64,000 nt of DNA from Halichondria panicea. Lineage: Eukaryota; Porifera; Demospongiae; Suberitida; Halichondriidae. Positions 2 to 64,000 of the stretch are shown here, in pieces. The DNA is taken from NCBI RefSeq assembly GCF_963675165.1, contig NC_087387.1, forward strand, positions 4,490,990 to 4,554,989, in the 5' to 3' direction. The stretch's first letter is position 1; each line of letters starts with the position of its first letter. The notes under the pieces were generated by a model. That model was not told the DNA's origin. It saw only the letters and a program-made list of their open reading frames with translations, and did no database searches. A program made the position numbers and the translations under genes.

Positions 2-2116
2 GTTAAGACTGGTACAGCTGCAATAGACCCCCAATACACGTACGTTGCAAACGGTTCCCTGGGTATTACCGGACTGGGAGGACAAAATGTTACACTTCAA
101 TTAGATGTAGCTGGCAATCGAGATTGGCGTATAAAAGTTGAACTGGTTATTGAGGAATGTCCTATTGGGTACATAGCACAGAACGTCTTTGTCAACATAT
201 CATCCAACGAAACAGACTCGATCAAAGAGACTAAATGCGAATGTATTGGCGGAAACGAATTGTACACATTCGGAGGAAACTTGATTTGTAATAAAGTGGA
301 TATGACATCGAAAATTCATAATGGTTTCTGGATTGGACATATAGAAAACGTACCAGGTATTTCAAACGACACATTATATATGGGTATGTTACTACTAAAG
401 AACATTTCAGAGAGTTATTTAACCCTCAATCATTCTAACGATACGCAATGCAGGTACTTGAATCGTACAGGTACGCTGTGTGGTAAATGTTTAGAGGGTT
501 ATTCCGTTGCAGTGAATACTTACTCCTACGATTGTATTTTATGCAATAACCACACGAACCTTGTCCAAAATGCCTTGGTATACGTTGCGCTGACCTACTT
601 GCCTTACTTGATTTTGTTTCTACTAATAATCTTCCTTAACATCAATTTAATGAGTGGGTCTTTATCTGGGTTTATCCTCTATGCCCAGTTAATCGGTTCG
701 GGCGTACTAGAGCTAACAATCGATCGCCTTCCTAGCCAAAAATATGCTTACTACCTTCAGAGAGTGTATCGGATGTCGTATGGTGTTTTCAATCTCAATT
801 CCTTCTCCGGGATATTGTCTCCGTTTTGTGTTAGCGAAGATTCTAACACTCTAGGAGTGATTAGCTTAGACTACGGTGTCGCTATTTTCCCACTAGTAGT
901 GATAATCGTTATTTGGCTAGTCGTAAGTCTAGTGGACAGGTGTAACTTGCGGAGGGCAAAAAATCGATCTCTACAAACTTTTGCCAGTGTACAAGGGAAT
1001 AGTGAATCAAGTACCAGTCGAAAAATTGGAGAATCAATTAAGAAAATGTTCTCTCGCAATTTTATTCACGCTTTTGTTGGATTCATATATCTATCTTACA
1101 CCAAGATGAGCCTTGCCGCCACTCTCACCTTGACAACAGTTGGAGTATTCAATCAAAATGGAACCTACGTCACCTCTACACGCCTGATCTACTACGCTAG
1201 TCAGTATTACTTCGGACAAAATGAATATCTCTATCCGTACGGTGTAATAGCAATTACTGTGTACATTATCGCTGTTGCACTGCCCTTCGCTTTGTTAGGT
1301 GGTCTAGATTTCGTCAATTGGCTCACTGGTCTGGAAAAGTGTGTTCTGATGAGAAAATTATGGCCGAGTCTAACGATCAACTCTTTCTTAGATGCGATGC
1401 GTGATTGTTACCGGCCCAATCGACGTTACTTTGCAGGGATCTACTTTCTCTTTCGACTTGTAATGCTAATGATTTTCGCATTCTCCTCCAAACTACTCAC
1501 ACTAGTCTTGTGCCAGCTCCTGTTAATTTTCCTAATGGTTGTCGTGGTTGCAATAATGCTACCTTATAAAGAGATGCTTCACAATTTTATCGATATTCTA
1601 CTCCTCCTCAACATGGCAGCAATTACCCTCATTTCAATCTATCTCTACTCCGCTCCTTCCGACAATGGTAGTACCTACCCCTTTGAATTATACATTTTTG
1701 GTACCATTTTAATCTGGTTGCCAATGGTATATCTACTTATCTATATCTGCTCCTTTTGTCTACGAAAAACAAAAGCGTATAAAACGGCCACAGAGAAGTT
1801 TCTGGCCCACCGTGCAGTTCTGTTCTTATACAAACATTTCTCAAATTTGGAGCTTTACAGAGAGATACAACAGCAAAGCATGGTTCGTATCGTCGCCAAT
1901 GCTAGGGCCAATGGCCACGACAACAATGGAGTGTACGGACATATAACTGATAATGAGGCAGATATGACTGAATCAATGATGCTGTTAAATAGAGCTGGAG
2001 AGCGTAATTTATACCGACCAGCAAATCCGAAAATAACTAAGTCTACTGTGTCTGTGGTTCATGACACGAGTGGTATGGCTGATGTAAAGGGCCGGTATGG
2101 GATCAACGATACATAG
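2..2116 (+). CDS. beta-helix family surface protein with Cys-rich module and multi-pass C-terminus (5'-truncated by window edge)
   Basis: The frame is open from base 2 to the TAG at 2114-2116, so about 704 C-terminal residues are present and the start lies outside the window. The N-terminal part has a beta-sandwich-like stretch, then a Cys-rich region beginning CPIG (about residue 50), a CEC motif, and a GTLCGKC motif near residue 160. After it come about eight hydrophobic segments separated by polar loops, consistent with a multi-pass membrane domain, and a roughly 100-residue polar tail. The same order (CPIG, CDC, GVLCGEC, then membrane segments) occurs in the gene at 43411-47964, which still has its beta-helix repeats, so both belong to one family. 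By analogy the missing N-terminus should carry a signal peptide and polymorphic-membrane-protein-type repeats. Function is unknown; a cell-surface role is inferred. No lesion is visible here. Confidence 0.8.
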   Translation, partial: VKTGTAAIDPQYTYVANGSLGITGLGGQNVTLQLDVAGNRDWRIKVELVIEECPIGYIAQNVFVNISSNETDSIKETKCECIGGNELYTFGGNLICNKVDMTSKIHNGFWIGHIENVPGISNDTLYMGMLLLKNISESYLTLNHSNDTQCRYLNRTGTLCGKCLEGYSVAVNTYSYDCILCNNHTNLVQNALVYVALTYLPYLILFLLIIFLNINLMSGSLSGFILYAQLIGSGVLELTIDRLPSQKYAYYLQRVYRMSYGVFNLNSFSGILSPFCVSEDSNTLGVISLDYGVAIFPLVVIIVIWLVVSLVDRCNLRRAKNRSLQTFASVQGNSESSTSRKIGESIKKMFSRNFIHAFVGFIYLSYTKMSLAATLTLTTVGVFNQNGTYVTSTRLIYYASQYYFGQNEYLYPYGVIAITVYIIAVALPFALLGGLDFVNWLTGLEKCVLMRKLWPSLTINSFLDAMRDCYRPNRRYFAGIYFLFRLVMLMIFAFSSKLLTLVLCQLLLIFLMVVVVAIMLPYKEMLHNFIDILLLLNMAAITLISIYLYSAPSDNGSTYPFELYIFGTILIWLPMVYLLIYICSFCLRKTKAYKTATEKFLAHRAVLFLYKHFSNLELYREIQQQSMVRIVANARANGHDNNGVYGHITDNEADMTESMMLLNRAGERNLYRPANPKITKSTVSVVHDTSGMADVKGRYGINDT

Positions 2117-3107
2117 GAATTAAACAAACGTACGTACGTGTGTGTGTGCATGTGACTATAAGCTATGGACATCAGGATTGCAATATATATATAGGCCTAT
2201 ACTCTCTTGTACAAATTGTATTGTTCTTACGATTGTACCATGTGTTCTTTTTGTACGTCACATATTTTTATACGTTACATTACGTGTTACATTACATACA
2301 CTACTTTTGTTTGCACTGCTGTCGTGAAAATATTTTAATTCTGAGTGAAATTGTAAACTGCATGTGACAATTGACACGCAGTACGTACTGAAGTCCTATA
2401 CTAAACTAGATATCTATATATCAATATTATTATATGTGGTCCTACACTATGATATATGAAGCACTTTAGGAAAACATCATCTACTGCATGAATGATAGCA
2501 TACGTTTTGCTCTCTGACCCTGACCAGTAATTGGTTGGCATTCGCAAAAATAATTATGAGCCAGAAAATTCCGTATCTGTAATAAATATGTTGTACACCC
2601 TATATATATATAGGCGAAGAAAAAAACTGAATCGCTAGATTTTGAGCCCATTTATAGCATTAATTTAGGGTATAGTTTTATGTTTCAGATACGTCAACTT
2701 GGCGTAATTATTCTTCTACATGTAGATTCTGCACGTATGATACTCGTCTCAACACCAACACCAACACCAATACCAACACTGTTGTGTTGGTGTTGACGAA
2801 TATTGCAACACCTTCACCCTCAATATTAAGTGTATAATTATTTTAAGTGACGATGATGATTATTGGTGTGGCAGTGCCATAGGAAATGGTCGTCTAAACG
2901 TACCATGAACACTCCTATACATGTATAAGGATAGCTATAATCATTCAGCAAAGCAACAATAAACATAGCCTTATTGGAACTATCTGCATGTGTGGTCCAT
3001 AGAATATTTAATGAGTATTATAGATGGGTTGATCATGCATTTTGAACTCTTAAATTACAAAGCTGGCCTTATACAGTTAGTCTTTGAGTCAAGAACCTGC
3101 TATCAGT
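2117..3107. other. intergenic spacer
   Basis: No convincing coding exon. It holds AT-rich sequence, an AATAAA-like signal near 2581 that could serve the upstream gene, and a CAACAC-rich stretch at 2750-2795 whose two ends pair as a 12-bp stem hairpin. The 75-codon open frame at 2140-2367 is low-complexity and unlike a protein. Confidence 0.6.
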
Positions 3108-6100
3108 ATGGCCTCATGCCATTCTGTGTACCTGCAAGCCTTTACTGAGTTGTATCCAGATTTGATAGGAAATTTGAAGTCTGGAGTTTTTGATATAACT
3201 GATCAAGCATATTCGAAGTTTCTTATTTCCATTGATGTTAAGGACGAGATCACAAGTAGAACATCTGGTAAAACAGAAACAGAACGAACAAGAATTCTTC
3301 TAGACGCTATACAAGCCAAAATTTCAGAATCTGATGTTTATTACCAATTCCTTGAAATTTTACAGGAAGACAAAGCCTTCAATGAAGTTGCTTGCAAATT
3401 TGAAGCCAAAGTCCAGGCACAAGAAGAACAGAAAGGTGCATGAGTTCTACTCAACGAAAGGCATGCCTGTATTCTTATATATACTCTCTCCCGTGATATC
3501 GTACAATTGCCGGACGTATAATGGGAATTATTTTGTGTGGCCATTTGGTGACTTGCATGCGTCTGCTGCTTAGCTCTTTAATATTGACGGTTGGTGGTAT
3601 ATAATTTTGGTGATATTCGTACCAACTCGACAATTACAATGCTCGTCAAATTTTCCCGTTCTCCGGTATAACTTTGATTTGGTTGGACATTCTTAACCAG
3701 CATATTTAACCAGCATAATTTTATAATCCAATCGCACACAGGCAGCCTATCTTCTGCTATCGAGACACCTGGTCAAAATCGACACGTAAATCGAGAGTAC
3801 TCTATTCTTGTTCACAAGAAATGCCAATGGAATCGATACCTACAAGATTCTTACACTATGAACAAGTTTATCAGGTTGCTTAAAAGGAATGGTTTACTGA
3901 CCAAAAATCAGAGCAGGCGCAGCAGGAAGAGTTTTGAGCAATTATTTGATTGTATGCTGTCCCTTGTGAAAAAAGACCCCTTCAAATTGAGATCTTTCAC
4001 TGAACTCTTGGAAACGATTACCAGTGAGCAACTAGAGCTGGAGTCTGCAGTACGTTGTGAAACAGAACTGGCTGATCAATATACAGGTATTTAGTTCCTA
4101 TAACCATACATAATTATAATTTTTTTATAATAATTATAGAGCCTAATGGATATCACATACACCAGGCCAGAAACAATATCAAGAATAAAACTTACTGGAA
4201 AACACTGGGTAAGCTGACTTTATCTGTATAAATTCCAGTGCACTAATTATTACATTATGAGATTTATCATTTTTACTGCCAATGCTATATAGCATGCAGC
4301 TACAGTGTCTGTGAAAGTACAATTATACCCGAAAAAGTCGAGTACATAGTATAGTACTTGACAGTGTTATGTGAAGGTATCATTTTGTAGCTGCATTGTC
4401 TTATTATCAAATTACAGTTCTTAATAAAAAATAAAACTCTCTCACATGCGGCTATGATTATAGTAACCGGTGTCACTAATAATTATGATCTGCTCTATAA
4501 TCTGTCCTGTCTCATTTGAATCTATAGGTACAGTATTCACGGTGATACTATTCTTTGCAATACTCATAGTGTACGTGTTTGTCCCAAAGAACAGCAACGC
4601 TGGCAATGACAATGGATTCATATTACCAAATAGTACGGATCGGGTAGATAAAGGTAGTATTGATGTTTATAAGCAAACTATGAGTCACAATCTACCACGT
4701 AGAAGTAGCCCCTTCTTTGGCCGAGAAAATAATTTATCTAGATTGACAGAGATCTTGCTGAAAGGAAATTGTATTATAAATATCAATGGTCCACCAGCAT
4801 TCGGGAAATCATCTCTAGCTGTCAAACTAGGTTGAAACTTAATCGAAAACCACTCGGGAGTGTTTAAAGAAGTGCGCTATATTGATGTTGCCACAACAAG
4901 AATGTCGATATATTTGTGCTCACATCACTTCGAAAGTAAAAGAAGCACAATAAACCCAGGCAGCAAGGAGCCTAACTCAGTTGTAGCTTTGAATGATTCA
5001 GAATCGTCAGGCAGTTCTGGATCGGACACCGAACCGGACATATGCGAGTGGTCCAAAACTCGCACGTACAGAAGTTTATTAATACTAGACAATTGTGATT
5101 TTGTTTTACATGAAAGTCGACGTCAGGAATTCATTGATTTTATCAACAGCCAGTTGGATAGGTGTCATTATGGGAAGCTAAGCTTGGTCATAACCTCTCA
5201 GGAGCAATTGAACTTTTTGGATAACTGTTTTCAGAACTTTCCGATTGCTGAACTAGATCCAACGGATTCTGTGAACTTGCTACGACACCATATTCCAAAT
5301 TTGAATGATGAAATGGCTCAACAATTTTCTTCACTCGTTGGACACTGTCCACTTGCGCTGAAAGTTATTGAAAGACTTTTGGCAGCTAGAGGAATTGAAA
5401 ATATGGAGACCTTACTTAACAGTTTAAAGGAAAAGGCGTCTACCATCTCTAATAGAATAACAGATAATAAAGAACGTTTTAGGACGATAATGGACGTTGC
5501 ACATTCAAATCTTGATATTGAAAATCAAGAATGCAGTCTCATTGTCAGTTTCTTCCAAAGTTCTTTCGATTCGGAAATCGGAACAACAATCCTGTCTGGT
5601 ATTGTCAATCCGGACTGTGTTCAAAATATTGTTCAAAAGTCGTTTTTAGAAGAATATTTTGTTGCTAGTAAAACTCGATACACTATGCATAAACTTGTTC
5701 GGAGCTATTTTCAGGAGGTACACATCAATGATTCGTTTTATGTGCAAAACCGAAAATTATTTATTCAAAACTTTATTGCCAACTATTCTGACTACCTCAT
5801 TAGCATTATGAAAGATCGCTACAAATTCAAGAACATAACTGATGAAGAAAGCCACAGGTTCTTTTATCTGGAACATAAAAATATCAAGTATTTTTCCCAG
5901 GAATTGGTAATTAGTGCAATTAAAAAAATTAAACTCAATGACAACCATTTGATAGCATTGGCCATGCTTATCATTGAAAATATCTCAAATGGTTGGTTTG
6001 AGAAAGAGGTAGCATTTAAGTATTATTTCACTGATCACAACTTATATTGGAAACTCTGCCATTTCTCGTCAGTAGACATTTGTTCGCAGTTTATGTGGAA

Positions 6101-7052
6101 ACTACTTGTTTATAAAGGTATTCCACATTGTACTAGATATTTTGAAAACGATCTCTCTCCTGTATTGTATTTTCGAATTTTAAACTTCTTTTTAGACGAG
6201 AAACCTGATTGTGAAATATTTGCTTGTAAAAACTTAACATTTCTAACGCATAGAGGTACGTTATCTCTGATTGCGGAGCAAGTAGAGAAATCAGGAAATG
6301 GTGAAGAAAAGCATTTACTGTCGATATTAGAAACTGTACTTTTGTGCTGTACGAATTTGTGGGTCAGAAACTCAATACAAGTCATAAAGTATGCATATTC
6401 TTTAATACTGAGCGCACTACCCATGTTCATGTCATCATGTGTGATATTCTTAACAATGTGGTGGTTCAAAGCAGTAACTTGTTCCAGTTTCAAGGAAAGC
6501 GTAACGTTTTTGAAAAATCATTTTATGTTGTGCTGTTTTCTCAACTGGCTGGAACATACTTGCGTGCCAAATCAAATCAATTTTTGTGTTTTAGATATCT
6601 TCATAATTTTACTATTATTATTACTAATTGTTATCATCGTAATGGTTAAGAATCTAAGGCCAAAATGCATACACCACAGGAATGTGTATACGAAATGTCT
6701 TACAAATGTTTTAGTGACGATAGATGTGCTTGTAATTGGAGCATATGCTAGAATTTTGTATTTTTTTTACTGTCACTTACTTTTTTCAATGCTTGTGCAC
6801 TGCTTTGTGATATTTGTATCCAAGAAAAAAAGAGTGAAATATACTAAAGATTCTGACAAACATTCAGAGCAGCTGCTTGATGATAGTGATTTATTAGATT
6901 ATGATTTTCTTGGATTCGTAGTAGTACTGACGATTGTTATTGCACTACTTATTGCTTTTGTGTTACCGTACTATGCGATTAATGCTATATTCTATTCGAT
7001 TAGTTGGCTTAGTAATCCAACAACTGTTTCTGACATAGGAGTCTTAAATTGA
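3108..7052 (+). pseudogene. membrane-anchored CARD-like / NB-ARC STAND protein gene, four exons, one in-frame TGA
   Basis: Exons 3108-3435, 3742-4086, 4140-4208 and 4528-7052 all join in phase 1 with GT-AG borders and total 1089 codons. Exon 1 encodes a helical CARD/death-fold-like domain (residues about 1-105). Exon 2 encodes a second helical segment of the same kind (about 150-220). Exon 4 opens with one hydrophobic helix (about 248-268), then an NB-ARC-type ATPase: P-loop GPPAFGKSS (335-343), Walker B-like LLILDNCD (about 431-438), a VITSQE sensor and a CPLALKVI GLPL-type motif. The last 200 residues contain about four further hydrophobic segments. CARD plus NB-ARC is the Apaf-1/NLR plan, where nucleotide-driven oligomers recruit death-fold partners; membrane anchoring at both ends is not the usual form. 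Codon 350 (4833-4835) is TGA, 14 residues after the start of the P-loop, followed by 733 open codons. This is a recent nonsense mutation, a base error or an allele. No LRR or WD40 repeats were recognised. Confidence 0.75.
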
Positions 7053-7186: not shown

Positions 7187-8265
7187 AAAAGTCCACTACA
7201 AAGAGGAGACAAGAGAATAGGATGGGTCCAATGAGTGCTCCCTATACATATGGTGAGCCTTTTGTTTCAAAATGGCGATACAAAATACCATGTGTTGGTG
7301 TCCCAAAAATCAACTCGATTTGTTTTATCAACTCGATTTTATCGACTTTATCTGGTAGGGATCGACTCGATGTGTTATATCAACTCGATTTTATCTAGGT
7401 AAGGATCGACTCGATGTGTTTATCAACTCGATTTTATCTAGGTAAGGATCGACTCGATGTGTTTTATCAACTCGATTTTATCCAGGTAAGGATCGACTCG
7501 ATGTGTTTTATCAACTCGATTTTATCCAGGTAAGGATCGACTCGATGTGTTTTATCAACTCGATTTCGAGAGGATCGACTCGATTCCAGGCCGCTGGGGG
7601 AAAAGGCGAGTTTTGAGGGCGGCTTGATATCTAGGCTATCTATGGCTGTACTCACAAAGGCGCTAGGCTCAGACAAGGCACTGAGACTCTTGAGGCCACA
7701 GGCAGGCCTACAGCAGGTCAGAGTAGCTGACCTTCCAGGTACGTCTGCAGAAGGTCACAGCAGCTTACTTGTGCTAGATCACAGTAAATTAAATCACTAA
7801 ATGCTTGTCTACTTGACTCTTGAGTTCATGAAACATAGCAAGTAGCTACTGTGTGATCTCAGGCTCAGAAGGTCCCCATCTGAGCTACTCTGAGCTGCTG
7901 TAGGCGTGCATGTGGCCTCAAGAGTCTCAGTGCAGTGCCCCTTGTCTGAGCCTAGCGCCTTTGTTGCAAGAGTATAGCCTCGATATCAAGCCGCCCTCGA
8001 AACTCGCTTTTTTCCCCCAGCGGCCTGGAATCGAGTTGATAAAACACATCGAGTCGATCCTTACCTGGATAAAATCGAGTTGATAAAACACATCGAGTCG
8101 ATCCCTACCAGATAAAGTCGATAAAATCGAGTTGATAAAACAAATCGAGTTGATTTTTGGGACACCAACACATGGTATTTTGTATCGCCATTTTGAAACA
8201 AAAGGCTCACTATATATACAGACCAGCAAAGTAGATACCTCCAGCAATGGCCAGACCAGTCAGGT
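7187..8265 (-). pseudogene. stray TMEM245 last-exon copy split by a foldback element
   Basis: Bases 8219-8265 and 7187-7243 are two halves of a sequence closely matching the last coding exon of TMEM245 (30088-30223, minus strand). The intact exon runs straight from one half to the other; here about 970 bp of inverted-repeat DNA lie between them. The remnant stands 13 kb from the nearest other copy and has no neighbouring TMEM245 exons, so it is non-functional. It shows that the 3' end of TMEM245 was dispersed beyond the tandem array. Confidence 0.85.
7253..8210. mobile_element. foldback / long inverted-repeat element
   Basis: The left end GTGAGCCTTTTGTTTC is matched by its reverse complement at the right end, and pairing continues inward for at least 300 bp per arm (roughly 7253-7690 with 7895-8210). 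The arms contain tandem units of about 45 bp built on GATCGACTCGATGTG and ATCAACTCGATTTTATC; the left arm has more units than the right. An unpaired centre of about 200 bp remains. Both ends are flanked by TA-rich steps. No transposase is encoded, so it is a non-autonomous foldback element or large MITE. Confidence 0.85.
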
Positions 8266-11160: not shown

Positions 11161-11838
11161 ACTATAGTGTATATCCCGTAGCGCGCCTCGGATTAATTAA
11201 GATATCACACGCAGTACTGCAATCCTAATAAAAGCACCGCGGGTGCTGATGCCTCGGTGAATGTGTCAAAGTTACGTAACATAAAGCCAAGAGTTCATAA
11301 TGAAGGTCTATTATAAACTCTTGATAAAGCTACTATAATTATAGCTAATATTAACATTAAACAGCTAATATGTAATTGCTAATTGCTAATACACATGATA
11401 TAATTATTATGATTATCATGATGAACAATTTTTGCATCAGGCTAATCACAGGGAAACTCAAAATAGTGGGAAATGATTGATCATGATTGTTGCTCAAAAA
11501 GATGCCAAAAATACACAAAGGGCTGCTGCATCAGTAGAGCCTTGCAGCTCTCTTCTCACTCTTGCAGCTATTACCAATAGCTAATATAGCGGTCTAGTGC
11601 AGAGCTATAACTACTAAGTATAGAGTAGCAACACTCCATGCATGGACAAGTTTTTGCTACGCACTATTCTGAAAAGGCTGCATGCAATGGCATTCCAAGT
11701 AACTATATAGGCATAACTCGAGAACAAAGCATTATTTTCATGTTTTGTGAATCCAAAATCCAAGAAAACGTTACTGAAGCCTCTTATACTTGCAGTTCAT
11801 TAGCAGCTCTATATTATCAGTCTATACACACAAACACT

Positions 11839-12561
11839 AGCCTCGTTCCCAGGGCTTACTTTTTCTTGCTGTTGTCATTGTTCATCCAAAAAGAATAGAC
11901 ATAGTGAGGCAGCAAAGAAAGAAATGTGCGTACAGTTAAGAAACTCTTCAATCTATGGAAAAAGGAAGGCCTGGTTTGGGAAATCGCGTGATCCACAAGG
12001 ATTTTTATGAACGTGGGCGATAAGACTACTATACTGAGACAACCACCAAGCTGTGCTGCAAGTCAGATCAGAGAACCAGCGTGGCCAGCTCTGGTGGCAG
12101 TAGCTACCTGCTATATGATAATCATGACTAAGCTACTCTTGATCTATACCATGTAGAAAGACACAAGAAAAGGTGATAGTCTGATTGAATCTGAACACAC
12201 AATCTAGACTAGTAGATCATCTAGCTAAGCCTAAGGTATAGCTAGCTATAGTGCTTGCAAACTTTCAGTTCAAGTCCATGTCCAGCTTGCTGCAGGCAAA
12301 GTTTTATTAGTCATAAAACTCTACGTGGGCAGTCCAACATCTCTAGCACTGCATGCCCACTCTCATTTTCATCCTTCTACCACCCTTATACCCTCATGCG
12401 ACTTCCCGATACAGGCTCTCCTTTTTCCTAACTCTACGTCTATTTTCTCCTCCAATCAATACCGTATTTTATCTCATTGAACAATTAATACAGTATTTTA
12501 TCTTATTGAACGATTGTGATAAAGAACAAAAAAATAAAAAGGAGAGCCTGTGTAGAGGCTA
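11839..12561. repeat. dispersed repeat family Y, copy 1
   Basis: About 720 bp that recur in the same orientation at 62105-62856, with only scattered substitutions and short indels. Both copies begin AGCCTCGTTCCCAGG and end GAGAGCCTGTGTAGAGGCTA. An internal reverse-complement pair (ACAGGCTCTCC with GGAGAGCCTGT) suggests a transposon-derived unit. No coding capacity. Confidence 0.8.
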
Positions 12562-12937
12562 CATAGACACAGAGACAGACACACACACTATCGTATACCT
12601 CGCTTGCACATGCACACCAAGGCATAAATATGGGTTGCTATATAATAGCTACAGTATATAGCACAAGTTAGATTCAACCGGACAATCGGATTGGAGAGGT
12701 ATAGTTTTACCCATTATTTGTTAACTAATAATTATGACATCATCAGCCACAAGGCCATAGATATCAAGAAAGACGTCAGGCAAAATGGATGTACATAATA
12801 ATGGGTAAGCACCAGACATTAATCGTCAATGCAGCAGTCGCTACTTTTAGAGGTCGCGGAGGTGCTGCATATTTATAGAGGGTTGAATAAGTGCAGTACT
12901 TATTAAAGTGTACGTGTACATACAGTGGAGATTGGAC

Positions 12938-17527: not shown

Positions 17528-20080
17528 TTATACTGAGCTCATGGGCATGAATTCTTCAATAATGCTGGTTCTGGATCGGATCCAATGAAAGGGTTTTGCC
17601 TTATTCATGTTCGTCCAATGTGTACGATTACACAAATCACCAGACGTGATCCTCAGAGTTCTCGAAGCGAAACTAGTGAAGACTTCAGTGATAGTCCTGG
17701 CTTCATTTGAATCACGTGAATACTTTTCATAGTCCTTCTTGTCATTTTTATGATCTTCTTTATACAATGTGATACATTTAATTGTACCAACAACAATGGC
17801 TTGTTTGGGGATAACAGTGATGTTACTGAAGCAGCTCAAAATTAGAGGATCAGAAAATGCTTCGAAATGAAGGTGAAGATGTAGGCGTTGTCTAGACCTA
17901 TCAGCTTTTGACCATTCAACCAAAATCAAAGCCATCGGAGTTCCAGAAAGTTGGCGCGTCCCATCTTTATCAAAAATTTTCAACCGAAAGCACAGTATCT
18001 TGATTGACCCATCTGTAAAGGCTTGCTTCATTTCCTCGATGTCCTCTAGAGTACCACCTCGTGCTGCTCCAATGCTCTTGTTTACATGATCAACACAAAA
18101 ACGTAGAAAGAAATCAGGCTGGCTGAAAAAACGAAAAGTATTGCCATCTCGTATTATCTCACGCACTCCGTTAATATCCGGACCCTGAAATGGAATACCA
18201 GGATCACAATACAGCGAGGGATTTTGCTTCAGTCCTATGTCATCGATCTGTTCATGCAAGTCACCCAAATCAGCAGCAGGAGACTTCAAAGCTTGAATGT
18301 CCTCAAGATTGGTTTTCTGGAGCTCAATCCACAATGGTATGAACAGGTTACCATAAGAGACTTCGTCACCACTGCAAGCAGTTTGAACGATTATTTTCGT
18401 GTACTCTAGTAGACTTTTGTTGCGTTCGAAGTAAGTAGCCCATTGGCCAGAATAGCAGGCATCAACGATAATAATCACTAGGCTTTTGAATTGTTTACGA
18501 TCCCGTTCCTTTAGCTGATCGAGGACCCATTTTGGAGACAATAGACCGGACTGAAATGCAATCACATCCCCAGCAGATGCGTCCCTAGTCACGGTATGGG
18601 GCGTGTACTCCTTACCCATCATTGTGCTACAATCTTTTAAATCCCAACGCAGGTACTTCCTGTTGAGAGTTTGCACCTCTCCAACAGGAATAGGATTGTT
18701 TTGTAACTTCGTGGCAGTTTCGGAGGACAAACCGTGGCCTGTAAGGCAAAGAACTGAAACAATTTTATTTATTCGGGCTGGGTTTTCAGGATTGCCAACG
18801 AGAAAATGCCTACATTGCTCTACAAATGATTCGTCCACTGCGTCCATGAAACCAAATTTAGTGTATGACCAATGCTCCCTATGATCCTTTGTAGGAAACA
18901 TATCACCAACTCTTTTTGCATAGAATTCAAACGAATCGAAATCATCCATCATTTGGGTATTGTCTTCAAATTTAGTAGACTCATATTTTCTCTTTGCTAG
19001 AGTGACTAGATCTTGATCTTGCAAATCTAAACAATGTAATAAGGGTCCTGATTTCCACATTGCGTATAATAGGTAGTTTGACACACAATTGAAACTGAAT
19101 TTACCAAGGATGCATGTCAATTTTCATAATTATATACGTGCATGTATACTGTACAATGTATGTTATATAAATGTACAGATAATTGCAACTACATGTACAT
19201 GTAGAATACACTTAATTACAGCATTGATCTATCGAACGTACTTTCAGGAACACCAAGAATATTGCACAGCTCAAGACGGCTTCCTCTCCTAATCATGTCA
19301 TCAACAAATGATTTCGCATTAAGACCGGAGTCAATAGAGCATGGGAATGCCAATGCTAGCACCTCAATCTGAATTGGAGCAAGCAACAGCATCATATACC
19401 GTTAATACTCAGAACGTCATGCAGAACATCATTATGAGCAACGGGTAACCTTATACATAGTTATATTGTAGTATAGTTAGTTAGCGCTAATAAAATTAAA
19501 ATTTCCATGACAAACAAGCACTTGGTCTATAATAATTGCATGAAAAACAAATTAGCTTAATTACCTATACAACACATTGTTACAGTAGGAGAGTCTACAG
19601 TATAAAGTTATACCGGAAGAGAGGGTGTGCATGTGCATGCATGGATCCAATATCATCCACCGCACTCAAATTAACCACGAAATATCCTATCCTAGATGTG
19701 ATTACAAATGATTATAATTATGTACTGTATATAGCAGATAATTTTCATGGGCGAGCTGACCTTCACAAAAATGTTCCCCAATTTTTTTCGTTACGAAAAT
19801 CTCCTTAAAGCAAAATGTTTACCCCACGAAAATTACCCCCGCTATACGGTAGTACGTTGTGTCTGTTTGATAATGTAACTGAATTTCAGCCTCGAGCAGT
19901 GCCTTTGGGTTTATAAATTCCGACAAAAACAGTGCCATGTGCACTGCATGCATGCCCAATACAATAAGTTCTATGTAAAGGTTATCCTCAAGGCTTCTAG
20001 AAATTGTGACTGCAAGTATTAACCTTATTATCAACGAGTTGAGCTTCATCATCACTGCCCTGATCATCTGCACTCTCCAT
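17528..20080 (-). CDS. caspase-like (clan CD) cysteine protease, three exons
   Basis: Proposed exons, all minus strand: 20024-20080 (19 codons from ATG, acidic), 19242-19368 and 17528-19047, in phases 0 and 1, giving 567 residues. Clan CD proteases (caspases, metacaspases and relatives) use a His-Cys dyad. Here TGHG (His about 166) follows a hydrophobic strand, and VIIIVDACYSG (Cys about 259) follows a second one, 93 residues later; this His-then-DACxSG order and spacing fits the fold. Upstream lies a helical region (about 20-140) without a recognised domain; downstream are about 300 residues of unknown character ending in a basic region. The last exon is certain as an open frame of 530 codons; the two small 5' exons rest on splice phase only. 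The protein is not a classical caspase by sequence, and substrate and role are unknown. A MITE sits in intron 1. Confidence 0.72.
19730..19846. repeat. small MITE in intron 1 of the protease gene
   Basis: The ends TATAGCAG..AATTTTC and GAAAATTACCCCCGCTATA are inverted relative to each other; the total is about 117 bp. It resembles the element at 40434-40620, whose ends also read TATAGCGGG. Confidence 0.6.
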
Positions 20081-22135: not shown

Positions 22136-24234
22136 TTAGTATAATATTCTGTGCAGTTTTAATTAGCACTTCCTGTGGAGCAGGCTGGGTCTCTGTTACA
22201 ATAGAGTCTTTGTGTACAGAGGCCCTGCAGGGGCTCTCTTGTTGGTTGCCATATGCAACATTATTTCTTCTACTTTTCCTTGCTACACGTATTCAATTCA
22301 AGGATTCTTCTTCATGCATTTTGTATACTGCAGGGATTTGTTGGCACATCTGGACCACGGCTCTGGACCGTGTGCTACAGTCTTGACACACAACGAAAGG
22401 AATAGACATACAATTATACTAGCCGTACAAAACTCATCCTTCAATTTCCCTATTGATGAGTGTGTCCACAAAGAGCAGAGGTAACAAAGAGAGAGTGAAC
22501 AATGCTAGAGCGGAGAGCAGTTGTCCCTGCAGCAGCCACAGCTCCAACACAGCAGGCAATGCCAACCAGTATGCCCCAATGAATGGAATGGCTCCAGCTA
22601 TCCCAGCCACTACTGCAAGGAACATAAGAAAACGCAATCATGTGGGGGTAAAGCAATCATTCAGTGTGATGCAAATAAGACAAAGAGACCAGGATTTCTA
22701 AACTCTACTAGACCTTCTAAAACTAATTTCGCAGTGCATTTTACAGGGTTCTATTACATGAAGCCTTTTAGGAAGCCTTTTAGGAAGGCCCTATATCCAT
22801 CACTCAGGGATTGAGGGATCTACAACTCTAACCAGTCAGTCTGGCCTCACCAGCTGGGAGAATAGCCACAGGTAGTCCGAACAAAGTGTGGGTGAGCCAG
22901 GTGTAGAAACCATAGAAGAATGCTCGTCTGAACGTTGCATGGAACACACTCCTTTAGAGAGATATACATGTATATCCGTCATGTCATGAACAACTAGTTA
23001 TTGTACATGTATGCACAATTATGCAATTGTACACTATACATGTACATGTAATAATTATAGTAACATGACTGTTGATGCTCTCAAGACTTATGTTCAAGTA
23101 AGAATGTGCAGAGAGAAAAAGGATAAGCCTATTGGCTTTAACAATAGGAAATGTTTTCCAAAACATCTCTCCATTCTTCACCTTACTGCCCGTGAGAAAG
23201 TCTTGCCGTGTTTCTTCTTATCCCCGTCCATACCGACCTCGGTTGAGGTACCAGTTGTGGAATCATTGGAGGAGAGGGTTAAGTCCATGTGTGTTGAGTT
23301 CAACCTTCATAACTTTGTCATACTTCAAATACTGAAATTCATCCATTGTTAAAAGTGCTTCTATCTATATGCTGTAAGCTTCAACCAGCTAAAAGTTAGC
23401 ATTTTCCATGTATGTGTAGGAGGCCATGGCATACTAGCTACTTGCCAACCACATACAGTGCATCCAGCAAAATTACTGTGTACTTTGATAGTGGATTTGG
23501 TTTGGCATGCATCTTTCAAGAAATACACTTGTTGTAGCCTATTCATTCACCTACACAATGGTATCAGCACCATTTCTTAGAAAGATTCCAATCAAAAGAT
23601 ATCAACATTTGTACAACCACTCACACAGTTGTGGTAATCTACTGGCACTGTAAACCATTAATGAAGCCTAATTTACCATAAATTCTGGGCGAATTCAACT
23701 TTAGATGCTTTGTGCATGAGTATAGATGAACTATGTAACGGAATTCATGTAAAGTGGAACCTCGATTATCCGGACACCTTGGTTACAGAGGTAGGCCGAA
23801 TAGCTGAATATGAGGAAAATCGAATAGATAACCATGCCTTGATACAACCACTTAATTGATGAACAACTAGTGCCACATGGTTGTCTGTGCATGCATGCGC
23901 AGAGAAGCAGGCCTGTCTCCATAGTAACAGCTGCATGTGCATGCGCATTTAAGGGACACACAAAAAAGAAAATTGCCAAGCTGAGGTTCTACTGGTACAC
24001 TGTACATGATTCAGTACTTCACTCATGCCTCATACGAAACACCACGTCATTGACATTTAGCTATACCCAGTAGTGCTGCTATAAATATAGGATCTGACAA
24101 AAAGCATGGAAACAAGCGATCGGAGGAAAACCGTACAATTTTTTAACAGGTGGCATACATGTACATGACATTGGTAAACATGGTCTAACTATACAATTAC
24201 TGACTCGTAACATAATTAAACAGGATACCTAAAG

Positions 24235-26188
<1,954 letters not shown>

Positions 26189-27138
26189 CCATGTGTGTTG
26201 AGTTCAACCTTCATAACTTTGTCATACTTCAAATACTGAAATTCATCCATTGTTAAAAGTGCTTCTATCTATATGCTGTAAGCTTCAACCAGCTAAAAGT
26301 TAGCATTTTCCATGTATGTGTAGGAGGCCATGGCATACTAGCTACTTGCCAACCACATACAGTGCATCCAGCAAAATTACTGTGTACTTTGATAGTGGAT
26401 TTGGTTTGGCATGCATCTTTCAAGAAATACACTTGTTGTAGCCTATTCATTCACCTACACAATGGTATCAGCACCATTTCTTAGAAAGATTCCAATCAAA
26501 AGATATCAACATTTGTACAACCACTCACACAGTTGTGGTAATCTACTGGCACTGTAAACCATTAATGAAGCCTAATTTACCATAAATTCTGGGCGAATTC
26601 AACTTTAGATGCTTTGTGCATGAGTATAGATGAACTATGTAACGGAATTCATGTAAAGTGGAACCTCGATTATCCGGACACCTTGGTTACAGAGGTAGGC
26701 CGAATAGCTGAATATGAGGAAAATCGAATAGATAACCATGCCTTGATACAACCACTTAATTGATGAACAACTAGTGCCACATGGTTGTCTGTGCATGCAT
26801 GCGCAGAGAAGCAGGCCTGTCTCCATAGTAACAGCTGCATGTGCATGCGCATTTAAGGGACACACAAAAAAGAAAATTGCCAAGCTGAGGTTCTACTGGT
26901 ACACTGTACATGATTCAGTACTTCACTCATGCCTCATACGAAACACCACGTCATTGACATTTAGCTATACCCAGTAGTGCTGCTATAAATATAGGATCTG
27001 ACAAAAAGCATGGAAACAAGCGATCGGAGGAAAACCGTACAATTTTTTAACAGGTGGCATACATGTACATGACATTGGTAAACATGGTCTAACTATACAA
27101 TTACTGACTCGTAACATAATTAAACAGGATACCTAAAG

Positions 27139-29092
<1,954 letters not shown>

Positions 29093-30087
29093 CCATGTGT
29101 GTTGAGTTCAACCTTCATAATTTTGTCATACTTCAAATACTGAAATTCATCCATTGTTAAAAGTGCTTCTATCTATATGCTGTAAGCTTCAACCAGCTAA
29201 AAGTTAGCATTTTCCATGTATGTAGGAGTCCGTGGCATCATACTAGCTACTTGCCAACCACATACAGTGCATCCAGCAAAATTACTGTGTACTTTGATAG
29301 TGGATTTGGTTTGGCCAGCAAAATTACTGTGTACTTTGATAGTGGATTTGGTTTGGCATGTATCTTTCAAGAAATACACTTGTTGTAGCCTATTCATTCA
29401 CCTACACAATGGTATCAGCACCATTTCTTAGAAAGATTCCAATCAAAAGATATCAACATTAATTTTAAGTACAACCACTCACACAGTTGTGGTAATCTAC
29501 TGGCACTGTAAACCATTAATGAAGCCTAATTTACCATAAATTCTGGGCGAATTCAACTTTAGATGCTTTGTGCATGGGTATAGATGAACTATGTGACGGA
29601 ATTCATGTAAAGTGGAACCTTGATTATCCGGACACCTTGGTTACAGAGGTAGGCCGAATAGCTGAATATGAGGAAAATCAACCATGGCACCTTGATACAA
29701 CCACTTAATTGATGAACAACTAGTGCCACATGGTTGTCTGTGCATGCATGCGCAGAGAAGCAGGCCTGTCTCCATAGTAACAGCTGCATGCGCATGCGCA
29801 TTTAAGGGACACACAAAAAAGAAAATTGCCAAGCTGAGGTTCTACTGGTACACTGTACATGATTCAGTACTTCACTCATGCCTCATACGAAACACCACGT
29901 CATTGACATTTAGCTATACCCAGTAGTGCTGCTATAAATATAGGATCTGACAAAAAGCATGGAAACAAGCGATCGGAGGAAAACCGTACAATTTTTTAAC
30001 AGGTGGCATACATGTACATTACATTGGTAAACATGGTCTAACCATACAATTACTGACTCGTAACATAACTAAACAGGATACCTAAAG

Positions 30088-36942
<6,855 letters not shown>

Positions 36943-43410: not shown

Positions 43411-46400
43411 TCATACTTCATCATTGTTTATGGGGGCAATTTCTGTGTGTGTAACAATGGGATCACGGTTGACGCTCGTAGAGGGAGGGGCCGGGGTGTA
43501 GTCCTCTGTGGTGAGGGGGGCTAGTTCATCCAAGTAGGATAGTCTCAGCTGGTCAGACCTCGTGGCTGATCTGATGATGGGAGGAGTGATGTAACGATCA
43601 GGGTCAGCTTCTTCCATGGCTCTATCAGTGTAAGGTTGGTCCACGGGTACGTGTCTTTGCTCATAGTTGTCGACTACTTCAAGAAATCAATCGTCATCGT
43701 TTATTTGCTGATAATTTTCCCGGCTATTGTTAGCTTGTTGGAGTCTCATGTCTGCAACTCCAGCTCTTAAGTTCCTTATGGTGTCCTCTATCTTCAGCCA
43801 TGTATTGAGCTTCTTGAGCACGAATTGGTAGAAATGGTAGCAAAGGGTTGTCACAAACAGAATGAATGATATAGCTATCGAAGTATTGGCTAGTGCTGAC
43901 TGATTTTTCTTTGTATTTTTGACATAGAAGGTGCCAAATGCAAAAATAGCAACATTGAGTAGATAGAGAGTTTCAAGGGAACCACAGAACTTATTTTTAT
44001 AAGAACGATTATTCAGTAGTTTCCATCCAATCAGTCCAACTGATAGAACCCCAGATGATAGAATAGGGAGAGACGTGTCTGGAGCCATGGCAACTACTAG
44101 ATTATGAGTAATCAGAGCAAAGAGGAGCAGTCCCACCCAATAGCGATGCTTGGGAGTGAATGGAGCATGGTATGCATCCATGAAGCCAATGTATTTTGTG
44201 TTCTCAGTCCATTTAAAAACCTTTGAACAGCGAGGAAACCATTGTCCAAAAACGAGCAATACAGTGAACAATCCACCGGCAATGAGAATTATGGCGGCTG
44301 CAACAAACCGAGGGATGTGATTGATAGTGAAGTATTTCACATTGCTATTGTACAGCCAAACTATTTCGTTTGTATCATCAGGATAATCTAAGACCCTGTG
44401 TTGTAGTGCAGCAATGATAAAACGCAAGAATTTGGAATAAGAGAGTAGCTAGGACAAGTGTGCCTAGGGCAGCAACAGGATTCCTGTTGGAGAGGAGCTT
44501 TGCAAATGAGTTAAAGTACTTGCTCAAAATGATTACAAGAAACATTAGAAGAAACACGTAAGCTGGGAAGACAAGTTGAAGGAGTACTTTTGCTTGAGAG
44601 TTCATTCCATTGTAAAAGCATGTTTCGATTCCCATGTCAAGATTCACCCATGATACAAAAACTGTTAAAAAGTTGTTTAAATTAGGAAAGAAAATTGCTG
44701 TATTAGCAGCTACTATGTTGGCGTAGAAAATGAGGCCATGAATATTTCCAGTTGCTATAGTGATGTTGAGCACGAGAATTAAAGCAACTAGCAATATGCC
44801 AGCCAGCGCAAATGGAATTAGTAGAAGAAGGTAAAGATCAGAGCATTCTATACAGTTTGACGTGGCCAACACAAGACTTAGTCCTGGTTTACATTCTCCA
44901 CACAATACCCCACTTCGATTGTAGGCACACTGTTCGTCAGGGTTGCTTAGACTGATGTTGACTGGTTTTTCTACGCAATAGTCAAATGTACAGTTACTAA
45001 TAACATACGTTCCATTGGTGGTATTTATGAATTCTATCCATATGTTGGTATTACTTTCAAGCGTTATGGTACCATTTTTCTCAGAACAGTTTGTTATCGG
45101 ATATCCTTGTTGCAAGAATGGATCACAGTCACACTTGCATTCAGTATCGGATCGAGTTGGTTTGAGTCCAATTGGGCATGTGCAGGGCAGAAAAGAAATA
45201 TTGATAAGTTGTCTTGAAATTCCCAAATTAATGCATGGACCTTCAGCATACAGTTCCACTTGAGCAGAGTTGTCTTGTGAGAATACATTGTACTCTAATT
45301 CTGTGCACTGATTGCCAACTGTTTGTTTTTCCTGTCCTTCGTTGAGACGATCAAATCCATTCTCACTGACAACAGAACTGCGAATTGTGGCATTCATTGG
45401 ATTTCCAACTTGGTCAACAGCCATAATGCTGATTTTAAACAAGTGTCCCTTTCTAGTAGAAATACTGCCATTATTACAAAAGATTACTTTAACAGGTCTC
45501 AAAGAAATTGATAACTCGCTGGGGGATTTTACGATATTATTTATGTAATTCAATCCAGGTCCATTTGAAGAAATGTGATATTCAGCAAATTTACTTACTG
45601 TACACCTGTCCAATAGACCTCCGTAGATGTCTGCTCCTGACTGGGTAGCTGTGTTGTTAGTCATGAATGTGTTGAAATAGTTTGGATTATTGCCTATCCC
45701 ATACAGGTTAATAGTTTGAATAAAACAATCAACAAAAATGGTTTGTCTGGATTCTGTGCCCTCTCCTCTGCAGGTACCACTCTCAGTGTCATCCGCTACG
45801 AATATCCCCCCTCCATGCTGTGCCGAGTTGTTGTTAATCATTAACTTGACATACAATAATTGATAGTTAGAACTATTAGCCAGATATTCGAAGACTTCTT
45901 TAAACAGGTATAGTTTTGAACTTTGCTGTAGGTACACTCCACCTCCTTTAGCTTTAGCTGTGTTTGAGTCAATGTTGACGTATGATTGCGTTAGTTTAAT
46001 GGTTGTAGCTGCTGCATAAATACCTCCACCATTATTCTCTGCAATATTGTCAACAATCTCACTTTGTTTATTTGATCGGAATTCAACTTTACTGGAATAT
46101 GCATAAATTCCTCCACCATCCTGGTGTGCTGTGTTGTGATAGATCTCTATTGGCTTGGTTATAAAGAGTGTACTCTCTCCTAGAAATATCCCTCCTCCAG
46201 AGGTAGCTGTGTTGTTGGTTATGATTGTTCTTTCTGTGTTAATGTACATTTCACTCTGGACTGCTTTAATGGCTCCACCCAACACACCACCACGATTGTT
46301 ACTGAGTCTTGTAGGTCCGTTAAACTTGACTCGACTATTGAAAATATCAATCGCTCCACCATGGTCAGCACTGTTATTTGTCAACATGCTGTCAGAGAAG

Positions 46401-47964
46401 GACACATTACTTAAGTAAACACCAATCGCTCCACCAGAGTCAGCTCTGTTGTTTGTCAGTGTACTGTTGGAGATTGACGCACTGCTTGAGGAAATATAAA
46501 TTGTTCCACCAATGTCAGCACTATTGTTTGTCAGCACACTGTTGGTGATGGACACCACACTGTTTGAGGAAACGTAAATCGCTCCACTACTGCTGTTAGC
46601 ACCGTTGTTTGCTAGCATACTGTTGAAGATGGACACGCTGCTTGAGGAAATATAAATCGCTCCACCATAGTCAGCTCTGTTGTTTGTTAGCGTACTGCCA
46701 GAGATGGAAACACTACCTCTGTAAACATGAATAACTCCACCACTATGGTCAGCTATGTTGTTTGTCAGTGTACTGCAGGAGATGGATACACTACTTGAGA
46801 AAACATAAATTGTTCCACCAAAGACAGCTCTGTTGTTTGTCAGCACACTGTTGGTGATGGACACCACACTGCTTGAAGAAATGTAAATCGCTCCACCACT
46901 ACTGTTAGCACCGTTGTTTGCTAGCACACTGTTAGATATGGACACACTGCTTGAGGAAGAAGCATAAATCGCTCCACCATAGTCAGCTCTGTTGTTTATC
47001 AGTGTACTGTCAGAGATGGATACACTGCCTGAGGAAACATAAATCGCTCCACCACCATGGTCAGCTATGTTGTTTGTCAGTGTACTGCTGGAGATGGATA
47101 CACTACTTGAGGAAACACTAATCGTTCCACCTAACTCGTAAGCACCATTGTTTTTCAGCACACTGTCGGAGATGGACACACTGCCAATACCAATCGCTCC
47201 ACCAAACTGAAAAGCTTTGTTATTTATAAAGTTACACCAAGTGATAACTACAGTACCAGATACCATTTCTACTGCTCTTCCACTCTCAGTACTCTTGTAG
47301 TTGAACTCTGTGTTGTTGATCAGTGCGTTTTTTGATTGAATGTCAACCACACCTCCATCATTTCTAGTGAACATACTATTTTTTATGTGCACATTATCAG
47401 CCTCAACATGCAGTGCCTGACCAGTGTTGTTCACAAATACGATGCATTCAATTTTTGTGGTATGAGTATTAGCAATTTTAACTATGTGGGTTTCCGCCTG
47501 ATTGAGTAATTCAAAGTTCATAAAGTAGCAGTTGTTGATATAGACATCGTGCACATCGTCAATGATCAAGCCTTGATGTGAGTTTAGTGGTCCATAATTT
47601 GCTCCAACGAAACTCAAGTTTTTAATAATCGTTTTGGTAATACTAATGAAACGTATTTCGCCATTGCTATAGAATCTCACAACAGCTGTACTTTTGTTCT
47701 GACTGGTGATATGTACATGTGAAAAATTACGAATCAATAACTGCTCAGTTAACACATGATCTCCAGGTAAAAAGCTCAAGGTGAGAATATCTCCTCCAGA
47801 TAACAAGTCTGTTTGAACAAGCTGCTCCAAAGTAAAACAAGTTCCATTTCCATAGTTATTACTGCAAAAGTCGGTTGAATCCACTGGCACAATGTGATAG
47901 TGCTCACTCCAGCAGCTAGAGTAAATAGCAGTACTAACCAACTGAGAATATTTCTAGACAGCAT
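43411..47964 (-). pseudogene. beta-helix repeat surface protein gene with two frameshifts and one nonsense codon
   Basis: The frame starts with a good signal peptide (MLSRNILSWLVLLFTLAAGV, ATG at 47964), shifts near 47900 into a long frame that runs to 44378, shifts again near 44450, stops at TGA 43687-43689 and continues in frame to a TAA at 43411. The long frame encodes a right-handed beta-helix of about 23-residue repeats (pattern SVSISxSxLxNNxAxxGGAIY, at least 13 copies, about 46350-47220), then a Cys-rich module (CPIG, CKCDCD, GVLCGEC), then multiple membrane helices. The tail has Tyr/Pro motifs (YITPP, YLDEL, YTPAP). The repeats are of the polymorphic membrane protein type. The first gene of the window shares the C-terminal plan. 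The rest of the coding sequence remains protein-like, so the lesions are recent or are sequence errors. Extracellular recognition or adhesion is a guess. Confidence 0.82.
46350..47220 (-). repeat. tandem coding repeats of the beta-helix domain
   Basis: Units of about 70-80 bp repeat with variation; on the plus strand the recurring phrases are GCTCCACCA, GTTGTTTGTCAG and GAGATGG. They encode the 23-residue beta-helix rungs. Pairs of units share third-base choices, which suggests local duplication or gene conversion. Confidence 0.85.
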
Positions 47965-63941: not shown

Positions 63942-64000
63942 GTGAGGCTCATGCAGTGAAATAATTCTAGTATTGATATTACTCAACTTCACACAGTATT

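Follow-up and report, generated by a model that had tools for sequence, protein, structure and literature searches.

A sponge gene family with CARD-like exons, an NB-ARC-type ATPase and predicted membrane helices on both sides of the ATPase

In animals, switches of the NLR and Apaf-1 type have mostly been known as soluble proteins with a terminal LRR or WD40 sensor. Here we describe a gene from the sponge Halichondria panicea that appears to be built differently. It lies at positions 3108-7052 of a 64,000-nucleotide stretch of contig NC_087387.1, called the window below; all feature positions count from its first letter. We find that this gene probably belongs to a family of ten loci encoding membrane-integral STAND ATPases of the NB-ARC type, which bear CARDs and would act as Apaf-1/NLR-like switches.

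The family resembles Apaf-1 and CED-4 in its CARD-like N-terminus and in an NB-ARC-type ATPase that carries Walker A and Walker B along with GLPL-like and MHD-like motifs. It differs from them in having a helix between CARD and ATPase, no WD40 and a multi-helix hydrophobic C-terminus. Animal NLRs, such as the sponge NLRC and NLRD proteins (CARD or Death, NACHT, LRR), share with it the combination of a death-fold effector and a STAND ATPase. The window family, in contrast, is without LRR, and 19 of 20 sampled NACHT genes lack a helix before the ATPase, though the gene L064 has one. Bacterial NB-ARC-TPR STAND proteins (AfsR and the FxSxx-system TPR protein) are the best profile matches of the ATPase and the adjoining helical domain but, to our knowledge, carry no CARD. 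KAP-type P-loop nucleoside triphosphatases (Kidins220) are likewise signalling P-loop ATPases with several membrane helices; unlike in the window family, these helices lie inside the ATPase domain, and no NB-ARC motifs or CARD are known in such proteins. The genome also holds what looks like a more usual Apaf-1-type CARD and NB-ARC gene (G000:C13:1705456-1707432, including L091), in which an exon over the Pfam CARD cut-off lies about 1 kb before the best NB-ARC match of the genome, itself containing one TGA.

Nematostella is reported to have Apaf-1 homologues with two CARDs, and ancestral Apaf-1 diversity has been described (PMC2246300). In placozoans, 39 genes with NB-ARC and 3 with NACHT are known, all lacking LRR (PMC6321704). 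A study of NLRs in the sponge Dysidea counts NACHT-LRR genes and sets other architectures aside (PMC12909245). The order CARD, helix, NB-ARC and further helices is undescribed in the titles and abstract openings of the papers listed from one open-access full-text library.

The gene consists of four exons, with a start ATG at 3108 and the end of the frame at 7052. Its three introns are all GT-AG and all of phase 1, and the phases are consistent over the four exons; the four-exon model of an earlier sequence-only reading of the window holds. The donors rank at the 96th-98th percentile among local GT sites and the acceptors at the 75th-88th (generic weights). Splice weights and the parameters for helix insertion energy (dG) are approximate values throughout. 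The spliced model has 1089 codons including the final stop, and its features are as follows.

3108-3435 (+): exon 1, CARD-like (death-fold) domain, codons 1-109; frame and phase-1 donor
3742-4086 (+): exon 2, perhaps another CARD-like domain; matches the exon-1 family weakly
4140-4208 (+): exon 3, short basic linker into the first helix; phase-1 introns on both sides, donor at the 98th percentile of local GT sites
4528-7052 (+): exon 4, with helix, NB-ARC-type ATPase, helical region and membrane helices; interrupted by TGA
4528-4583 (+): first predicted membrane helix, starting in the last codons of exon 3; dG -2.3
4788-4811 (+): Walker A, GPPAFGKS; G-P-P-x-x-G-K-S invariant in 8/8 aligned members
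4833-4835 (+): in-frame TGA, codon 350; private to the window copy among those aligned
5076-5099 (+): Walker B, LLILDNCD; D-N-C-D invariant in 8/8
5346-5360 (+): GLPL-like motif, CPLAL (CPLALK); P-L-A invariant in 8/8
5685-5696 (+): MHD-like motif, MHKL; H invariant in 8/8
5724-6386 (+): helical-looking region between ATPase and membrane part, from the alignment; weakly TPR-like in the paralogs on C6
6402-6467 (+): predicted C-terminal membrane segment 1; dG -0.2
6582-6650 (+): predicted C-terminal membrane segment 2; dG -5.0
6750-6818 (+): predicted C-terminal membrane segment 3; dG -0.2; possibly a hairpin if taken more widely
6906-6965 (+): predicted C-terminal membrane segment 4; dG -3.2

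The ATPase is flanked by predicted membrane helices. Hydrophobicity prediction recovers the single helix before the ATPase and the roughly four C-terminal segments that had been noticed in the sequence-only reading: codons 246-266 form one strong hydrophobic helix, and the last ~220 codons hold four. In the 738 residues that follow the in-frame stop, four segments reach dG ≤ 0, whereas 500 shuffles average 0.58 (with a maximum that was also 4). Across the family, a helix at dG ≤ 0.5 precedes the P-loop in all ten loci (dG -2.7 to 0.5, negative in nine), and at least two hydrophobic segments follow the ATPase in nine (those of L041 sit on a separate frame, and L046 has none). Among the NACHT genes, of which the genome has at least 102 (102 of 265 candidates scored), we sampled 20 of the 102 listed, with frames extending 82-300 residues before NACHT. 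Only one had a helix before the ATPase, a segment of dG 0.3 close to where the frame ends open, and three presumed soluble controls had none. An ATPase flanked in this way appears to be an unusual layout, common to nearly all sister genes.

Separately from this sample, L064 (G000:C17:1269001-1273700, open reading frame 470-4087), which is NACHT-LRR-like by eye, has a predicted helix at 84-102 (dG -1.0) shortly before its ATPase. A weak match to the CARD-like exon (E 0.016) lies about 4 kb upstream of it on the same strand.

Sister genes are found on four contigs. Protein searches of the assembly that contains the window (131 Mb, 39 contigs) gave ten loci that we count as family, namely the window gene and nine related genes. 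Four of the latter lie on C14 (L037, L038/L039, L040, L041), two on C5 (L042, L043), two on C6 (L044, L045) and one on C8 (L046). Long open frames are present in L037, L038, L040, L042, L043, L044 and L046. We left out a match at C14:4672481 (39 residues matched, E 0.0016) and one at C17:1269962, which is the NACHT-LRR-like L064 (E 6e-5). Exon 4 was aligned for the window and seven paralogs, which are 20-33% identical to the window; L041 and L045 were omitted because their frames are split. In these diverged paralogs the order proposed for the window gene recurs: a CARD-like exon, a helix, the ATPase, a helical or TPR-like region and a hydrophobic C-terminus. In the close pair L042/L043, the C-terminal membrane part has a nonsynonymous divergence (dN) of 0.019 and a synonymous divergence (dS) of 0.047, and it is under mild purifying selection. 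No relatives of the gene were found in viral and prokaryote sequence collections.

Exon 1 is CARD-like by profile comparison. It has 16 genome matches at E ≤ 0.1, itself included, and some domains of its family precede NACHT (C1:10207222, C2:1512258) or dynamin-like domains (L023). We compared this family by hhalign with seven CARDs of the genome, six of them from the 27 matches over the Pfam CARD cut-off and the seventh L045. Profile A3 (built with the window, L037, L039, L040, L041 and others) scored 74%, profile A4 80% and the merged A3+A4 profile 92% (E 6e-7, 73 columns); A3 and A4 have sequence L024 in common, and a separate result, not among these three, is inflated by that overlap. As controls for the 92% match, the reversed profile scored 0.1% and 30 column-shuffled CARD profiles at most 7.6%. 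These comparisons point to homology between exon 1 and recognised CARDs. In PDB, exon 1 alone gave five weak matches (MDA5 as the best, at E 0.42, and MLKL four times), and A4 gave 14 weak and mixed ones, including ICEBERG and a design on the Apaf-1 CARD template (1cy5). The related domain of L044 has 88 genome matches at E ≤ 0.05, itself included, many of them tightly clustered, on contigs C2, C3, C6 and C12. This L044-type domain appears to be a large death-fold-like expansion, the scanned members of which have no Pfam CARD match.

Exon 2 resembles the exon-1 family only weakly. The two match over 28 columns (25.9%; 0 of 100 shuffles as high), a hidden Markov model match has an E of 0.15 among 1085 open reading frames, and at E ≤ 0.1 the genome holds nothing else that matches exon 2. 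Of the two death-fold-like segments that the sequence-only reading had seen, the first is thus borne out as CARD-like and the second holds weakly.

The ATPase carries motifs of the NB-ARC type. Four are present (GPPAFGKS, LLILDNCD, CPLALK and MHKL), each with residues invariant in the eight aligned members; L041, outside the alignment, has E for the second G of Walker A. In PDB, the family profile A1 finds AfsR (1e-6), PH0952 (a STAND protein) and NRC4 from plants, and it has a weak match to NRC2. A single-sequence PDB search with exon 4 finds no match. L044 scores above the Pfam NB-ARC cut-off (28.5 bits; cut-off 23.5), with L038 (19.9) and L040 (18.6) below it. It also passes the cut-offs for NACHT (27.2 versus 26.7), NPHP3_N and other Pfam models. 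Exon 4 of the window has no Pfam NB-ARC or NACHT match; its ATPase matches only nSTAND1, at 19.4 (cut-off 27.1), and AAA_16, at 17.2 (cut-off 32.6). Against NCBIfam, it matches FxSxx_TPR at 6e-11 and 41.6 bits, below the equivalog cut-off of 300. We call the predicted ATPase an NB-ARC-type STAND.

Exon 4 of the window contains no Pfam WD40 match at E ≤ 5. Nor is there an LRR match in it (E ≤ 5) or in five paralog frames (L038, L040, L042, L044 and L045; E ≤ 0.5). We therefore do not class the ATPase as an Apaf-1, given the lack of WD40, or as a bona fide NLR, given the lack of LRR. The earlier statement that there is no recognisable LRR or WD40 sensor stands for the window copy. It needs amending for the C6 paralogs L044 and L045, which have weak TPR matches, under the Pfam cut-off, between the ATPase and the membrane helices.

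The topology of the first helix poses a real puzzle, as the sequence-only reading had recognised. If the helix spans, CARD and ATPase lie on opposite sides. Both are expected in the cytosol; therefore a simple spanning helix fits poorly, and a re-entrant, hairpin or non-inserted helix would fit. Summed over the ten loci, some with incomplete flanks, K+R number 22 before the helix and 13 after it, which leans towards a cytosolic N-side. Glycosylation sites after the helix number 51, against 48.0 expected. Two presumed cytosolic control proteins have fewer than expected (2 versus 5.4 and 0 versus 1.9). Among presumed extracellular controls, the ectodomain of a neighbouring gene shows an excess (9 versus 2.7), while part of another frame does not (23 versus 21.9). 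Because these controls disagree, site counts do not decide the side of the ATPase.

The frame of the window copy is not open. The sequence-only reading had taken the gene as intact and overlooked the TGA at 4833-4835, codon 350 of 1089. This stop lies in the last exon, inside the ATPase and eight codons past the GKS of the P-loop, so that Walker A is separated from Walker B and the window's own ATPase is cut between them. The seven aligned paralogs have H, E or Y in this column. After the 349 codons that precede the stop, 738 more are open, with no other stop in the spliced model; by composition, the odds of this are ~6e-25. Thus, the stretch was recently coding, and the absence of further lesions bounds neutral divergence since disablement at ~1-2% (rough model, assumed indel rates). 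Two ways around the stop were tried and rejected. The listed candidates for an intron that skips the TGA have poor donors, and none is convincing. For selenocysteine or a leaky stop, there is no selenocysteine insertion sequence in the window at the Rfam gathering score, none of the seven aligned paralogs has Cys in this column, and the TGA is followed by A.

The TGA would block production of the ATPase. An mRNA with a stop in its last exon is expected to escape junction-dependent decay; since the TGA sits there, a 349-residue product of CARD, CARD-like domain and helix is possible, and no more than that could be made. Such a product might be a membrane-tethered decoy or adaptor, or do nothing. 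It would share with MAVS the combination of a CARD and a membrane helix, although homology with MAVS is not shown beyond the CARD-like fold. We read the window copy as recently disabled, or as making only a CARD-CARD-helix protein.

Three other explanations bear on the exon structure and the first helix. The stretch before the ATPase could be the T-rich end of an intron misread as a helix, with the true exon start further on. Intron ends can look hydrophobic by chance: ahead of the C13 NB-ARC gene, DNA that seems to be intronic contains a segment with a dG of 0.2, and the single NACHT control match may likewise be an intron end. An in-phase acceptor at 4726 also outscores the modelled one at 4528 (1.2 versus 0.6, approximate weights). 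However, all ten loci have an open frame of 33-81 codons from the helix to a conserved F-x-G-R, and stops interrupt 18 of 20 other forward frames there. The stretch is therefore coding and not intron; the chance product of the ten open stretches is ~2e-17 if they are independent, which paralogs are not. An exon start at 4726 would also lose a P, a G and an R that are invariant in 8/8, and we regard the intron-end explanation as highly improbable. A helix-free isoform via a later acceptor (4726 or 4750, both in phase and scoring reasonably) was considered and rejected; either site deletes residues invariant in 8/8. It is also very unlikely that exons 1-3 belong to another transcript and exon 4 to a separate membrane ATPase gene. 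Exon 2, it is true, has no match elsewhere in the genome, but a CARD-like exon lies upstream on the same strand in nine of the ten loci. Profile A3 finds such exons just upstream of L042, L043 and L044, which are absent from A3, at E ~1e-8 or better, and L045 has an upstream CARD over the Pfam cut-off along with a weak Death match. Of seven CARD exons tested, six end in a single passing donor, which is of phase 1, and the seventh (L044) has none that passes; the phases agree over all four exons of the window gene. Several paralogs have phase-1 acceptor candidates before the helix, though frequently with more than one to choose from, and the sole candidate of L042 is of another phase. The two-transcript explanation is disfavoured because the layout recurs in diverged paralogs, while nearly all sampled NACHT genes are without the helix. 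Rather unlikely, finally, is a real helix that is buried or serves in oligomerisation, with only the C-terminus in the membrane and CARD and ATPase on the same side. The general expectation that both are cytosolic favours this, as do the occurrence of the exon-1 domain family in a dynamin-like protein and a glycosylation count near expectation. Against it, the predicted insertion energy is negative in nine of the ten loci, hydrophobicity is kept despite the divergence of L042 and L043 in this region, and the glycosylation test itself is mixed, with cytosolic controls below expectation and one of two extracellular controls in excess.

The stop codon invites two further explanations. The window copy may be a recent pseudogene or null allele without useful product, the function of the family residing in intact paralogs; we give this close to an even chance. 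The TGA is private to this copy and falls within the ATPase, and no well-scoring splice choice skips it. Furthermore, a second copy of the family, L041 (G000:C14:3271001-3280000), also looks disabled: its P-loop is altered, it contains stops, and its frame is split ahead of the hydrophobic part. However, 738 codons stay open past the stop, the rough model bounds neutral divergence since disablement at 1-2%, and the truncation keeps two CARD-like exons and the helix and falls in the last exon. Alternatively, the TGA could be an assembly error or a variant of a single haplotype, with the gene intact in the species. No second stop occurs up to the end of the frame and the ATPase motifs are all intact, but substitution-type errors are uncommon in an assembly of 39 long contigs, and we consider this unlikely.

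Several results weigh against a family of membrane-integral CARD-bearing ATPases as proposed here. Exon 1 alone has no CARD match in Pfam, and profile A3 has no CARD among its PDB matches. Matches of another profile, A2, to BCL10 (E 0.0019), caspase and Apaf-1 were discounted as CARD evidence because A2 contained L045, itself a Pfam CARD; A3, without L045, found none. The window ATPase passes no Pfam cut-off. No CARD-like exon and no C-terminal helices were detected in L046, and the CARD-like exon assigned to L038 sits 5.3 kb upstream. The C-terminal membrane part of the window has no good sequence match to the paralogs (best blastp E 0.03); lacking a convincing alignment, it is kept as hydrophobic and not as sequence, with common origin not shown. 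The first-helix region of L042/L043, with a dN of 0.69 and a dS of 0.70, shows no sequence constraint. The genome's NB-ARC matches on C13 and C3 are not counted as family, and of these only the C13 gene was examined. Ligand, compartment and signalling output are, moreover, matters that we infer.

The window contains other features besides this gene. Just 3' of it, an inverted repeat at 7242-8221, with arms of ~193 bases at 97% and a 44-base tandem unit inside, looks like a foldback or miniature inverted-repeat transposable element. A large tandem array spans 22417-32050, with units of ~2.9 kb in more than 3 copies at 93-97% identity and the same 120-codon open frame at 22990, 25894 and 28798. 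On the minus strand, 17531-19123 is a Peptidase C13-like open frame over the Pfam cut-off, and 44381-47953 is a long open frame with matches to polymorphic-membrane-protein repeats and beta-helix, inside which a 78-base tandem repeat runs for ~11 copies (46342-47184). A protein-kinase open frame at 62961-63956 (plus) also exceeds its Pfam cut-off. Dispersed repeats at 81-82% identity pair 11826-12577 with 62094-62869 and 60286-60626 with 61672-62039, and GC skew is locally strong at 60001-62000 (-0.278), the remaining 2 kb bins ranging from -0.075 to 0.139.

A protein of this family would work like a membrane-bound Apaf-1 or NLR. A signal at the membrane would be taken up by the C-terminal helices together with the short helical arm. 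The ATPase would then exchange ADP for ATP and oligomerise within the membrane plane, and the CARDs, once clustered, would recruit caspases or CARD adaptors. The more specific suggestion of a sensor that reads a membrane state, made in the sequence-only reading, is without direct support. A bolder and distinctly doubtful extension is a membrane-embedded apoptosome, in which CARDs and ATPase are cytosolic on a re-entrant or hairpin anchor, ATP-driven oligomerisation clusters the CARDs and draws the C-terminal helices into a ring or pore, and some members, the window copy among them, are cut down by a stop to membrane-tethered tandem-CARD decoys. If true, this would mean one protein joining membrane damage or ion flow to caspase recruitment.

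A small family that retains the CARD and the NB-ARC switch but has helices before and after the ATPase would amount to a separate wiring of innate immunity or cell death to the membrane of an early-branching animal. Its topology can be tested directly on the paralogs with open frames.

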